This document shows, piece by piece, positions 1 to 10,572 of a stretch of 43,119 nt of DNA. Source of the DNA: a virus; IMG/VR virus record IMGVR_UViG_3300035182_000690, positions 1 to 43,119 of that record. The stretch is one strand, 5' to 3'. The translations under genes were made by a program, and so were the position numbers. Each line of letters begins with the position of its first letter. Positions within the stretch are counted from its first letter, which is position 1. A model generated the notes under the pieces. The model had not been told where the DNA came from and ran no database searches. It saw only the letters and a program-made list of their open reading frames with translations.

Positions 1-10
1 TTATGTTATT

Positions 11-349
11 TTAGATTAATCTAACATATTGCGGACAATATATGTATAAAATGATATATATTATCCAAAGACATATTTCAAGCGGTAAAACCCAAGGTTT
101 CCATTCACCTGTTGGTTGATGACAATAATAATCCATAAGAATATGATCATTTGAGAATGGAATTAACATATTACTTAACGTCATTTTATGACATTCATTA
201 TATGTTGTCCAATCAGATTTATCTTTTTGTAATAATCTAATAACATCAGGTCTTGCTGATAATATTATTACCGTTATATATAAAATTGGATTATATGTAA
301 ATCTTGATACTAACCACAAATTAAATAAAATATGAAAGAATGTAGACAT
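11..349 (-). CDS. Small putative membrane protein, leftward
   Basis: A 112-residue reading frame on the minus strand. I do not recognise the family. The N-terminal 30 residues and a stretch near residues 90-105 (rich in I, L, W, Y) are hydrophobic enough for two membrane segments, with a polar middle. The ATG is preceded by AGGA at a spacing of six bases, which supports it as a real gene. It is the only gene pointing left in the window and faces away from the rightward genes across a divergent intergenic region. It could still be chance, since AT-rich sequence gives hydrophobic frames easily. Confidence 0.5.
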   Translation of the reverse strand: MSTFFHILFNLWLVSRFTYNPILYITVIILSARPDVIRLLQKDKSDWTTYNECHKMTLSNMLIPFSNDHILMDYYCHQPTGEWKPWVLPLEICLWIIYIILYIYCPQYVRLI

Positions 350-439
350 TGGTTATCCTATTATTTAGAAAAAAATTAATATATAAAATAAATAGACTGA
401 AATTTTATAATTTATATCTTTATTTTTAATTTTAATGGT

Positions 440-478
440 AAAACCTAAATGTATAATATAATTAAATTTATAGGTTTT
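440..478. terminator. AT-rich hairpin with T-tract
   Basis: AAAACCTA (440-447) pairs perfectly with TAGGTTTT (471-478), and a T run follows to 479. The shape is that of a weak intrinsic terminator in either direction. It lies upstream of the first rightward gene and behind the start of the leftward gene, where no obvious transcript needs ending, so its role is unclear. Confidence 0.35.
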
Positions 479-501
479 TGTGGAACTTATATCAGAAATT
501 C

Positions 502-590
502 GCGGATTAGAAATCCGCTACCTTAAGAGTCGCATGCGACTCAGATGCGAAGCATCTACCGAAGTCGGAGAACGACTAAGCCTACGGCTT
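502..590. repeat. Array of five consecutive GC-rich hairpins
   Basis: Five perfect inverted repeats follow each other with 0-8 bases between them. (a) GCGGATT 502-508 / AATCCGC 512-518, loop AGA. (b) GAGTCGCATGCGACTC, a 16-base palindrome at 527-542. (c) AGATGC 543-548 / GCATCT 552-557, loop GAA. (d) AGTCG 563-567 / CGACT 573-577, loop GAGAA. (e) AAGCC 578-582 / GGCTT 586-590, loop TAC, then TTT. By hand count about half the bases are G or C, far above the flanks. No reading frame covers it. The last hairpin plus T-tract could terminate rightward transcription; the others have no assigned role. Possible roles are a structured RNA, a REP-like palindromic element or an origin-associated element. 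Confidence 0.85.
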
Positions 591-631
591 TTTAATATAT
601 ATTTTAGAAAATAAATTATTAAATAACACAA

Positions 632-662
632 TTGACATTACAATATATTTTAATTATATTTG
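632..662 (+). promoter_or_regulatory. Host-like promoter, TTGACA / TATATTTG
   Basis: TTGACA at 632-637 and TATATTTG at 655-662 leave 20 bases between the TTG and the downstream box. This matches the Bacteroidetes primary-sigma consensus TTG-N19-21-TAnnTTTG. The gene at 703 starts about 40 bases downstream and has a good ribosome site, so this promoter probably drives it. The stretch ATTACAATATATTT (637-650) recurs at the promoter at 28905. Confidence 0.65.
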
Positions 663-702
663 TATATCAATTAATTAACAAAACAAACAAAGAGGTTACT
701 CT

Positions 703-993
703 ATGGCAAAGAAGACAAAGGCTCTTGCCCCTACAATCAAAGAATCATTATTCGTACTATTAGCAAATGCTTCAGTATCTGATGGTTCATTTACAATCAC
801 AAATGATTCAGTTTCTAAACTAGCTAAAAAGTCATATAAAAGCTTAGGTTTGGAATCTGCCCCTGAGAGATCATATACTCATAATTATTTGATGCGTTTA
901 GTACGTGCAAATGCAGGGAAATTGTTCAAGCATACTCGTGATGCCGGTACATATGTTGCAACTGCAAAGTTGAAGAAATCATTTGCGGTTTAA
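703..993 (+). CDS. Small basic protein of unknown function
   Basis: A 96-residue, lysine-rich protein that I do not recognise. It has no cysteine and no membrane segment. It is mostly predicted helix with a KLAKKSYKSLGLESAPERSY segment in the middle, so nucleic-acid binding is possible but not shown. The start is clear: GAGGTTA lies four bases before the ATG. It has its own host-like promoter and is followed by a hairpin at 1004-1035, so it is probably a single-gene unit expressed early by host RNA polymerase. Codon use is slightly richer in C-ending codons at its 5' end than in its neighbours, which would fit high expression. Confidence 0.75.
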   Translation: MAKKTKALAPTIKESLFVLLANASVSDGSFTITNDSVSKLAKKSYKSLGLESAPERSYTHNYLMRLVRANAGKLFKHTRDAGTYVATAKLKKSFAV

Positions 994-1590: not shown

Positions 1591-2193
1591 ATGGAATTAT
1601 ATTCTCTTGCTATGATATCCGATAATAGGATATTATATAACTTTATAGTAGAAAAATTGCATTCTAAAAAATTACAATTTCCTATCACTACACATTGTAA
1701 AAGTACATTAAATGATATCGAAGATCTAAAATTAGCAATTAATTTATTAGAAAATATACAATCAAATAATGTAATTTATAAACCATACGAAAAAGAATTA
1801 TCATCATTTAAAGAATTTGTAAAGGCATTTGGTGATGATGAAATGTTTACTAAATGGTGTTTATCAAATGCAACTGGCGCACCTGAGTTGTTAACATTTC
1901 TAAATGATATGATTAGTTCATCAATTGTTATAAACGTTAAACATTCAGCAAAAAGAAATATTATATCTAAAGTTGTTTTGGAGGAAAAAATATTCGTACC
2001 AAACGTTATAGATGGCAAATTAATATGTGAAGATATTGATAGCGGTGAAGATTGGGCTGATGTTATAGGTGATGAAGGTAAAATAAAATATGCTATTAAA
2101 GAAAAATCATTTATTCGCGGACAAAAATTAGAAGGCGAAGATGATTGGTTATTTAGAACAGTAAAAAGAAAAGGACAGTTCAAAAATGGATAA
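1591..2193 (+). CDS. Hypothetical protein
   Basis: A 200-residue protein without a recognised domain. TAGGTT just before the ATG gives a convincing start. The N-terminal half is mainly helical; the C-terminal third is acidic, with a GEDWADVIGDEGKIKYAI segment, and ends in a short basic tail (TVKRKGQFKNG). No signal peptide or membrane helix. Its end overlaps the start of the metallopeptidase-like gene by eight bases, so the two are probably translationally coupled. I cannot assign a function. Confidence 0.75.
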   Translation: MELYSLAMISDNRILYNFIVEKLHSKKLQFPITTHCKSTLNDIEDLKLAINLLENIQSNNVIYKPYEKELSSFKEFVKAFGDDEMFTKWCLSNATGAPELLTFLNDMISSSIVINVKHSAKRNIISKVVLEEKIFVPNVIDGKLICEDIDSGEDWADVIGDEGKIKYAIKEKSFIRGQKLEGEDDWLFRTVKRKGQFKNG

Positions 2194-2656
2194 TAAAAAA
2201 ATCGGTAATAAAGATTATGTTGATGCTCCACAATTAAAAGATTTGGCAGCTGATATTATAGAAAAAGAAAAACTTAACATGTATGGTGCTAATATTGGAT
2301 ATGTTTTAGTATATCCTAATGTTAGTAAAACCATAGCAGGTCAATGTACAAGAGCAAATAAAGATTTGAAATATTACAGTGACTGTGATTATGTTATTAA
2401 GATGAGTGGTGAACTTTGGGATTCGCTTTCGGATGAAAGTCAATATATTCTAATGTTTCATGAATTGTTACATATTCTACCAGTTACCAATGATAAGACT
2501 GGTGATGTATCATATAAACTTCGCGATCATGATGTAAAAGATTTTGCTATTTTAATTAACCGTCATGGTATTAAATGGTTAGAAACCGTTCATGCAATTA
2601 ATTGTAGTCTTAATGATACCGATGTTAATGATCCTAAAAATAAACTAACATTATAA
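2186..2656 (+). CDS. Putative phage zinc metallopeptidase (HELLH)
   Basis: A 156-residue protein with the zincin signature HELLH at residues 92-96 (H92 and H96 as zinc ligands, E93 as general base). A second conserved-looking patch RDHDVKDF at about 113-120 offers H115 or D116 as third ligand. This arrangement fits the small 'putative phage metallopeptidase' family (Pfam PF18894, from memory). It is cytoplasmic, with no signal peptide. The substrate is unknown; a role in virion protein maturation or attack on a host protein would be guesses. It overlaps the preceding gene by eight bases and is followed 17 bases later by the receiver-like gene. Confidence 0.7.
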   Translation: MDNKKIGNKDYVDAPQLKDLAADIIEKEKLNMYGANIGYVLVYPNVSKTIAGQCTRANKDLKYYSDCDYVIKMSGELWDSLSDESQYILMFHELLHILPVTNDKTGDVSYKLRDHDVKDFAILINRHGIKWLETVHAINCSLNDTDVNDPKNKLTL

Positions 2657-9828: not shown

Positions 9829-10572
9829 ATGTTAACTCAATTGAGTAAAATTAAAAAGAAAAAGGGTAAGGTGTATTTTACACCTGATACTGAAGCTGCA
9901 GTGTTAGAATATATTGCTGAACCTGATGTGTTAAAACGAAGTATTATCTATAAAGATCGTATTGAGTTTGCATTGGATAAAATGGCAGAAAGTATTATTA
10001 ATACTAAAAAGTTTTCATATATTAATGAATCATTTTATGATATTAAGCATGAATTAGTTGCTCATATTTTATTAAACATAAGTAAAATATCTCCAGAAAA
10101 AGGTAGGGCATTTTCATACTTTACACGTTCTATGATTAATTATTTAATATTATGGAATAGGCGATGTGAAAGACGAATGAAAAATGAAATGTCAATGTCA
10201 GGTAATGATGATTCTGAAAATAGTTTTGCATTGGACATAAAAGATGAATCATATGATATTGATGAAAAAAATGATGATATATCAACATTCATACAACAGT
10301 TTATAATTTATCTTAAAGAAAATTCATATGAAATATGTAAAGGTAGAAAAAAATACCAAAATATATTATCAGCAATAATACACCTATTGGAAAATAAGGG
10401 AATGGACATCATTTCAAAGAAATCAATATTTGTATACATCCGCGAAATGACAGATGACACATCTCAAAACATCAACAGAATATTAAACGTAATGAAAAAA
10501 ATATACCTAAATGCATATTCTTCATATAAAGAACATGGTTATTTAGATATGTCAAAAAAATATTATAATTAA
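9829..10572 (+). CDS. 55: gp55-like late sigma factor
   Basis: A 247-residue protein resembling T4 gp55, the sigma factor that directs host RNA polymerase to late promoters. Visible: KVYFTPDTEAAVLEYIAEPD at about 14-33, a helical region with IIYKDRIEFALDKMAESIINTKKF (sigma region 2-like, about 39-62), and KGRAFSYFTRSMINYLILWN at about 91-110, the core-binding and promoter-melting segment shared with gp55 relatives. The C-terminal third is acidic, then helical and basic. It is followed by a terminator. The repeated TATATTTA boxes in this window are its likely targets. It lacks the regions 3 and 4 of full sigma-70 factors, as gp55 does. Confidence 0.85.
   Translation: MLTQLSKIKKKKGKVYFTPDTEAAVLEYIAEPDVLKRSIIYKDRIEFALDKMAESIINTKKFSYINESFYDIKHELVAHILLNISKISPEKGRAFSYFTRSMINYLILWNRRCERRMKNEMSMSGNDDSENSFALDIKDESYDIDEKNDDISTFIQQFIIYLKENSYEICKGRKKYQNILSAIIHLLENKGMDIISKKSIFVYIREMTDDTSQNINRILNVMKKIYLNAYSSYKEHGYLDMSKKYYN

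Follow-up and report, generated by a model that had tools for sequence, protein, structure and literature searches.

REP elements have mainly been studied on chromosomes, as non-autonomous palindromes linked to a RAYT nuclease of the same genome. Table 1 of PMC3733652 gives stems of 5-13 bp and loops of 2-20 for REP hairpins of the GTAG family, and the available part of that source lists GTAG repeats for other phyla and CGTC repeats for Bacteroidetes. A Bacteroidetes RAYT subclass, 2.6, with 'atypical secondary structures' is described in the available part of PMC6006769. Other systems that invite comparison are small RNAs and intrinsic terminators, the N4 early promoters, for which the available part of PMC4496689 states that a G..A triloop closed by C:G is needed for hairpin extrusion, and the hairpin-forming repeats of sponge mitochondria (PMC2800124, available in part). 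We found no paper on tandem hairpins in phage intergenic regions, although we do not claim that they are absent from print.

Here, we analyze an array of five hairpins at positions 502-590 of a viral DNA stretch of 43,119 nucleotides (IMG/VR record IMGVR_UViG_3300035182_000690), the whole of which is called the window. Like REP/RAYT palindromes, the array has perfect short stems, small loops, paired hairpins and an intergenic site, and one of its units, unit B, has the outer stem and spacing of the Larkinella copies that flank a RAYT gene. It differs from them in lying in a phage, in comprising two tandem diverged units plus a fifth hairpin, in having no RAYT in the phage records, in not being multi-copy, in the replaced inner core of its first palindrome and in its shorter gaps. 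With small RNAs and intrinsic terminators it shares a series of stem-loops, the last hairpin being followed by T, but no phage-type promoter, Rfam match or divergent homologue was found for it. The N4 early promoters in PMC4496689 likewise have a short stem and a 3-nt loop, and hairpin H3 of the array carries C-GAA-G in GCGAAGC, but the phage has no giant virion RNA polymerase in ~193 kb and, by our own count against the available part of that source, H3 fails the +1C position. The sponge mitochondrial repeats, as far as PMC2800124 is available, are also intergenic hairpin-forming elements, though of unrelated genomes. A preliminary description of the window had offered three options: a structured RNA, a REP-like palindrome set acquired from a Bacteroidetes genome, or an origin or protein-binding site at a strand switch. 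Judged on sequence comparison, REP-like palindromes from a Bacteroidota host are the best supported of the three, and we put the probability that this T4-like phage has captured a cluster of REP-like palindromes in one of its intergenic gaps at roughly 55%.

Results

The window belongs to a T4-like phage, of which ~193 kb can be read from the records combined; the genome is not complete. Among the terminases listed, the best matches come from Microcystis phage Mel-JY01 (43.8%) and Flavobacterium phage immuto (46.4%). The host is probably a member of the Bacteroidota, because the immuto terminase is among the closest and because the phage promoters end in TATATTTG; the Bacteroidetes promoter consensus is TAnnTTTG. 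Against such a host, the Mel-JY01 record, whose terminase is also close, gives Microcystis elabens as its host. The features of the locus are as follows.

11-349, minus strand: lone leftward ORF, 112 aa; among the scanned viral contigs, found in the same phage only
502-518, minus strand: H1, GCGGATT-loop-AATCCGC; 7-bp stem, loop of 3
519-526, no strand: H1-H2 spacer; core stem CGACT to GCGGATT is 9 nt, the same as in the Bacteroidota double palindrome
527-542, minus strand: H2, 16-base palindrome GAGTCGCATGCGACTC; 8 bp, loop of 0, outer stem AGTCG/CGACT
502-542, minus strand: unit B (H2+H1); stem and spacing as in the Bacteroidota double palindrome
543-557, minus strand: H3, AGATGC-GAA-GCATCT; 6 bp, loop of 3, plus-strand triloop C(GAA)G
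558-562, no strand: spacer of unit A, 5 nt; GGT of GGTAG on the minus strand
563-577, minus strand: H4, AGTCG-5nt-CGACT; 5 bp, loop of 5; first hairpin of unit A
543-577, minus strand: unit A (H4+H3); diverged tandem copy of the unit B layout
578-590, plus strand: H5, AAGCC-TAC-GGCTT then a T-run; 5 bp, loop of 3; terminator-like
632-660, plus strand: phage promoter TTGACA-17-TATATT of gene 703-993; its start is 41 bases to the right of the array
703-993, plus strand: gene on the downstream side of the array, 96 aa; unmatched in PHROG and Pfam

The preliminary description had reported five perfect inverted repeats in 89 bases of otherwise AT-rich sequence, and both its coordinates and its contrast in GC content agree with ours (51.7% in 502-590 vs 14.7% in 352-501 and 14.3% in 591-702). 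Its three hairpins with 3-base loops are H1, H3 and H5, and its 16-base palindrome is H2, which when folded has 6 bp and a loop of 4. All 31 base pairs of the array are Watson-Crick, with zero G-U.

The hairpin cluster is far beyond chance. Clusters of even three such hairpins are absent from 100 first-order Markov versions of the window, and among 20,000 Markov versions of 480-610 the largest cluster had four hairpins and arose once. Folding z-scores of 497-594 are -5.8 and -5.0 for the two strands as DNA, and -4.3 and -3.4 as RNA. As DNA, the five hairpins form on both strands; as RNA, only the plus strand has the five hairpins as its minimum-energy fold, the minus strand folding differently. 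Because the array window ranks only 6th of 3505 by lowest 110-nt RNA folding energy, the array is exceptional by its form and not by its raw stability.

Read on the minus strand, the layout AGTCG..CGACT, GGTAG, hairpin occurs twice, with one extra hairpin. Unit A reads AGTCG-TTCTC-CGACT, TCGGTAG.., hairpin, and unit B reads AGTCG-CATG-CGACT, CTTAAGGTAG.., hairpin. The GGTAG lies on the 5' side of H1, its last G being the first stem base of H1, and overlaps the start of H3. The outer stem AGTCG/CGACT of H2 is common to H4 and to a Pedobacter palindrome. When 200,000 hairpin arrays of this geometry were drawn at random, H4 and H2 had identical stems together with a shared junction 5-mer at a frequency of 0.00028; with any two stems allowed to be the identical ones, the frequency was 0.0063.

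A second record of the phage, IMGVR_UViG_3300035180_001820 (67 kb), carries an identical array, is identical over window positions 1-672, matches the window at 99.985% across the next 20 kb and adds 46.6 kb leftward. An assembly join at the array, the artefact of which the preliminary description had warned, is ruled out, because the same stretch recurs in another assembly that differs slightly. Two other records of this phage span the right side and do not include the array. The ~193 kb of the phage covered contain no second cluster of at least three such hairpins. Among the clusters of at least four listed for 160 loci of this and related phages (2.08 Mb), the phage's own copy, present in two of the 160 (L166 and L246), stands alone; the 156 loci without the own phage (2.01 Mb) have six clusters of three and zero larger, and loci of related phages may overlap one another. 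Clusters of at least three are absent from the whole of Mel-JY01 and from 150 of 160 kb of immuto. In total, ~2.3 Mb from relatives gave no cluster of at least four. Of G003 the first 20,000 bases were covered, of G004 all but the last 489, and of immuto all but the first 10,410. IMG/VR scans returned the same phage alone, whether the query was the H2-H3 pattern or one of three proteins (those of gene 703, ORF 11-349 and gene 1009).

The preliminary description had proposed a search for homologues of the 89-base block in phages and Bacteroidetes, which gave chance-level matches only. In phages there was one 26-base chance match, common to 287 Vibrio phage records, and in plasmids one chance match. 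By blastn with the whole array, 14 of 395 Bacteroidota genomes had a match at E 0.1 or better vs ~40 expected, and among 396 genomes of one order there was one match at E 0.01 and nothing above chance (at most two candidates were scored per genome in these surveys of ~790 genomes). In Mel-JY01, 844 bp (L162 9965-10807) lack an annotated gene and are GC-rich in part; this stretch lies about as far before the Mel-JY01 thymidylate synthase gene as the array region does before the Thy1 gene of the window. The two places correspond by position and by two genes further along that match. As a counterpart array this gap was rejected, 10060-10320 folding like shuffles (z 0.12).

Scanning viral contigs for GCGGATTNNNAATCCGC gave at least 124 sites in at least 120 loci, 81 of the 124 inside tRNA genes; a genome scan with GTAG added in front found 37 sites in 36 stretches, and 17 of these sites are within tRNA genes. 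Nine of ten loci picked by eye (nine Bacteroidota by title and one 'uncultured bacterium') have a second perfect hairpin at most 20 nt from the site hairpin. The GCGGATT...AATCCGC palindrome, which the preliminary description linked to Bacteroidetes genomes, is real in some Bacteroidota arrays but is not a phylum-wide marker: with occurrences in 8 of 247 Bacteroidota genomes vs 46 of 249 in the phylum of a Sphingomonas genome, GCGGATTNNNAATCCGC was discarded as a general Bacteroidota mark.

Unit B has the form NGTCG-x-CGACN-9nt-GCGGATT-NNN-AATCCGC, which it shares with nine Bacteroidota copies in five genomes: two in Pedobacter, three in Larkinella, one in a Porphyromonadaceae bin, and two and one in further genomes of the Larkinella and Pedobacter families, respectively. 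Because the search was baited with GCGGATT/AATCCGC, only the GTCG/CGAC stem and its distance agree independently, and this agreement was noticed after the fact. CGAC lies at the unit-B distance in 6 of 90 other non-tRNA flanks vs 0 of 94 tRNA flanks, with ~0.35 of the 90 expected by base frequency alone; the window's own two flanks were excluded, identical contexts were counted once, and the loci are non-random, coming from earlier pattern and BLAST searches. Even in the Larkinella and Pedobacter families CGAC-N10-GCGGATTNNNAATCCGC is rare (2 of 200 and 2 of 201 genomes). The first palindrome of the Bacteroidota copies has a 13-nt inner part (GATTTGCAATC core) vs the 4-nt CATG of the phage, and H3-H5 have no match. 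Double palindromes occur in L461 and L465 and, as an inverted, REPIN-like pair, in L460. A Helicobacter sp. (L335 6790-6960) has perfect palindromes close together, CAAGGCTTTGCCTTG, GAATTCAACAAAGTTGAATTC and GCGGATTTTTAATCCGC.

In Larkinella humicola (L347 7090-7850), two inverted copies of the double palindrome bracket a RAYT gene. Its 179-aa protein scores 99.5 bits (cut-off 80) against NF047646, REP-associated tyrosine transposase, and also matches Pfam Y1_Tnp; its motifs NHVH and YLHDNP are a partial fit to the table in the available part of PMC6006769. In a further genome, G229, a GCGGATTTGCAATCCGC site is 38 bases from a RAYT match. RAYT genes above the cut-off are found in 94 of 247 genomes of the class of the Pedobacter genome. 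Perfect short hairpins occur at 38 of 46 RAYT flanks vs 34 of 120 and 46 of 111 control windows, and hairpin pairs at most 14 nt apart at 14 of 46 vs 4 of 120 and 0 of 111; these counts leave out 7 of 30 RAYT loci in which the motif search found no frame, the retained L475 and L476 share sequence, and in short loci the control windows at the far end can reach RAYT flanks. L472, L475, L481 and L486 combine a RAYT with hairpin pairs at gaps of 12-13 nt, the stems differing between genomes and the layout being constant. The gaps in the array are 8 and 5 nt vs the 12-13 nt usual at RAYT flanks.

Set against the published descriptions of REP hairpins, the array has stems of 5-8 bp and loops of 3-5 in four hairpins, H2 having a loop of 0. 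Unit B is a double palindrome of conserved spacing, with 9 nt between core stems as in the nine copies. Where a GTAG is expected 0-2 nt 5' of the hairpin, the array has one at H1 and one that overlaps H3; with GTAG excluded, the stems of H1 and H3 are 6 and 4 bp, below the 7 bp used in the available part of PMC6006769. The CGTC repeats that PMC3733652, in the part available, gives for Bacteroidetes argue against taking the GTAG tag as a mark of Bacteroidota. The phage has one cluster in ~193 kb, so the element is not multi-copy there, and Y1 transposase PF01797 was found in 0 of 4 phage records, which are fragments. We do not claim the array as a proven REP family member, because there is no such transposase in the phage, the array is single-copy there, its inner core differs and ~790 genomes gave no longer match. 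The earlier suggestion of a REP-like set from Bacteroidetes gains from the layout (outer stem, exact 9-nt spacing, copies flanking a RAYT gene) and loses from the unmatched H3-H5 and the different inner core.

The phage promoters are of the type TTGACA-17-TATATTTG. In ~193 kb, TTGACA-17-TA.ATT has 36 plus-strand matches and zero at that spacing on the minus strand, and a promoter weight matrix gives 37 plus-strand sites and no minus-strand site of score 4 or more. Many of the 36 (for example, window 632 and 6225) carry AACTCTATTGACA and TATATTTGTATATCAA, and the ~193 kb hold six additional TTGACA-23-TATATT. No phage-type promoter reads the array on either strand.

A structured non-coding RNA gene on the plus strand, in which four stem-loops are closed by H5 as intrinsic terminator, is the main rival to REP-like ancestry, because the non-ORF GC islands of the phage are mostly tRNA or tmRNA genes (23 of 32); we regard such a gene as unlikely, if still a serious candidate. 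Of the 64 islands of at least 50% GC in the phage, 32 fall within ORFs and 23 within tRNA/tmRNA genes; the other 9 belong to neither class, and several of these resemble unrecognised tRNAs by eye. The plus-strand preference of the five-hairpin RNA fold would also suit an RNA gene, as would H5, the only GC hairpin followed by a T-run and a putative terminator on the plus strand; the flanks are very T-rich, however, which makes the T-run weak evidence. Against an RNA gene stand the lack of a phage-type promoter in front on both strands, the zero G-U among 31 base pairs, and Rfam, which gave no match to the array at gathering score and one irrelevant match (E 1.4, outside the array) at a relaxed threshold. 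The array shows no covariation, the single further copy found being identical. A tRNA reading of H1 was rejected, ARAGORN finding no cloverleaf; H1 alone is an anticodon-arm look-alike.

The same phage has 40 tRNA genes by ARAGORN (L156 9582-19719, L157 356-8437) and a tmRNA at L157 11720-12079 (Rfam RF00023, 59.6 bits). A further non-coding stretch of ~240 nt with several imperfect stem-loops and repeated GTTTAAGC (L153 19287-19525, window frame ~65,544-65,782) has no Rfam match and sits behind a small gene, possibly tail tube by position.

The preliminary description had set terminators aside because no transcript would need terminating between the only leftward gene and all rightward genes. 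This argument loses force, since H5 resembles a terminator and a rightward promoter begins 41 bases behind the array. The same two features raise the idea that the phage itself made the block as an insulator, without REP ancestry, which would stop or slow rightward read-through and separate ORF 11-349 from the promoter at 632. The array does sit between the two, yet a T-run follows H5 only, the operon upstream is already closed by a strong hairpin of its own near -130, and the 170 bases before each of the other 35 promoters contain no more than two hairpins, of a looser kind, vs five here; we consider this origin improbable.

The proposed divergent region does not hold at larger scale. In the 25 kb left of the window every kept ORF of at least 80 aa is rightward, and 19 of 281 ORFs called in the whole ~193 kb are leftward. 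Because genes further left are again rightward, ORF 11-349 stands alone in its leftward direction and does not mark a strand switch. The check on GC skew proposed in the preliminary description showed no change at the array, cumulative skew rising steadily through it; with a steady skew and a lone leftward ORF, the array is not at a replication strand switch, and a replication origin at such a switch is not supported.

A structural site acting at the DNA level, with cruciform palindromes that take up negative supercoiling, serve as a binding site for gyrase or some other protein, or have a part in replication, is also given only a slim chance. Its stems are perfectly Watson-Crick, its folding z-scores are larger as DNA than as RNA, and H3 on the plus strand (C-GAA-G) and H5 on the minus strand (C-GTA-G) carry the G..A triloop closed by C:G that the available part of PMC4496689 describes as required for N4 hairpin extrusion, which makes hairpin extrusion at the DNA level plausible by analogy. 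The unchanged GC skew speaks against such a site, and the stems mostly differ, unlike one protein site. An N4-type vRNAP promoter, suggested by GCGAAGC in H3, was rejected; the largest open frame in the ~193 kb of the incomplete genome is only 1303 codons, which leaves no giant virion RNA polymerase there, a further point against a structural site.

A GTG ORF at 480-614 runs through the array and is open for 44 codons (44 aa). That it encodes a small protein is very improbable, given no protein-level match in phages, one chance match (E 7) in plasmids and no Pfam match; coding moreover does not account for the palindromes.

Elsewhere in the phage, window 2186-2656 matched PHROG 513 'transposase', yet by Pfam PF18894 (85 bits) it is a phage metallopeptidase. 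Three adjacent small genes in G001, ~9.0-7.8 kb left of window base 1, have a common KxRQGFVSNSSTSSF at or near the N-terminus and different bodies. TCTGGTGGGCATCTAA is shared by two places in the phage, L001 2260-2300 and window frame ~114,700.

Discussion

If the array is a captured REP-like cluster, a host RAYT, an HUH single-strand nuclease, would have acted on the hairpins as single-stranded DNA, and its action during phage replication or repair may have placed or copied the unit into the phage. The unit would now persist as a non-autonomous passenger between genes, where the phage would tolerate it and may draw a slight benefit from an insulator, structural or terminating, directly before the promoter at 632; H5 may contribute to this insulation. 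Any role for the array is inferred.

A bolder version, in which the phage took up host REP palindromes, kept them as a two-unit tandem and now exploits them, whether to decoy the host RAYT nuclease, to offer it a landing site or to form a structural switch before an early promoter, strikes us as doubtful, with odds well against it. If it were true, phages would be a vehicle that passes REP elements between Bacteroidota. NGTCG-x-CGACN-9nt-GCGGATT-NNN-AATCCGC, which brackets the Larkinella RAYT gene and occurs in four other Bacteroidota genomes, is a candidate substrate for Bacteroidota RAYT. A REP-like double unit in a phage without RAYT would allow a direct test of whether a Bacteroidota RAYT recognises, cuts or moves phage-borne hairpins.
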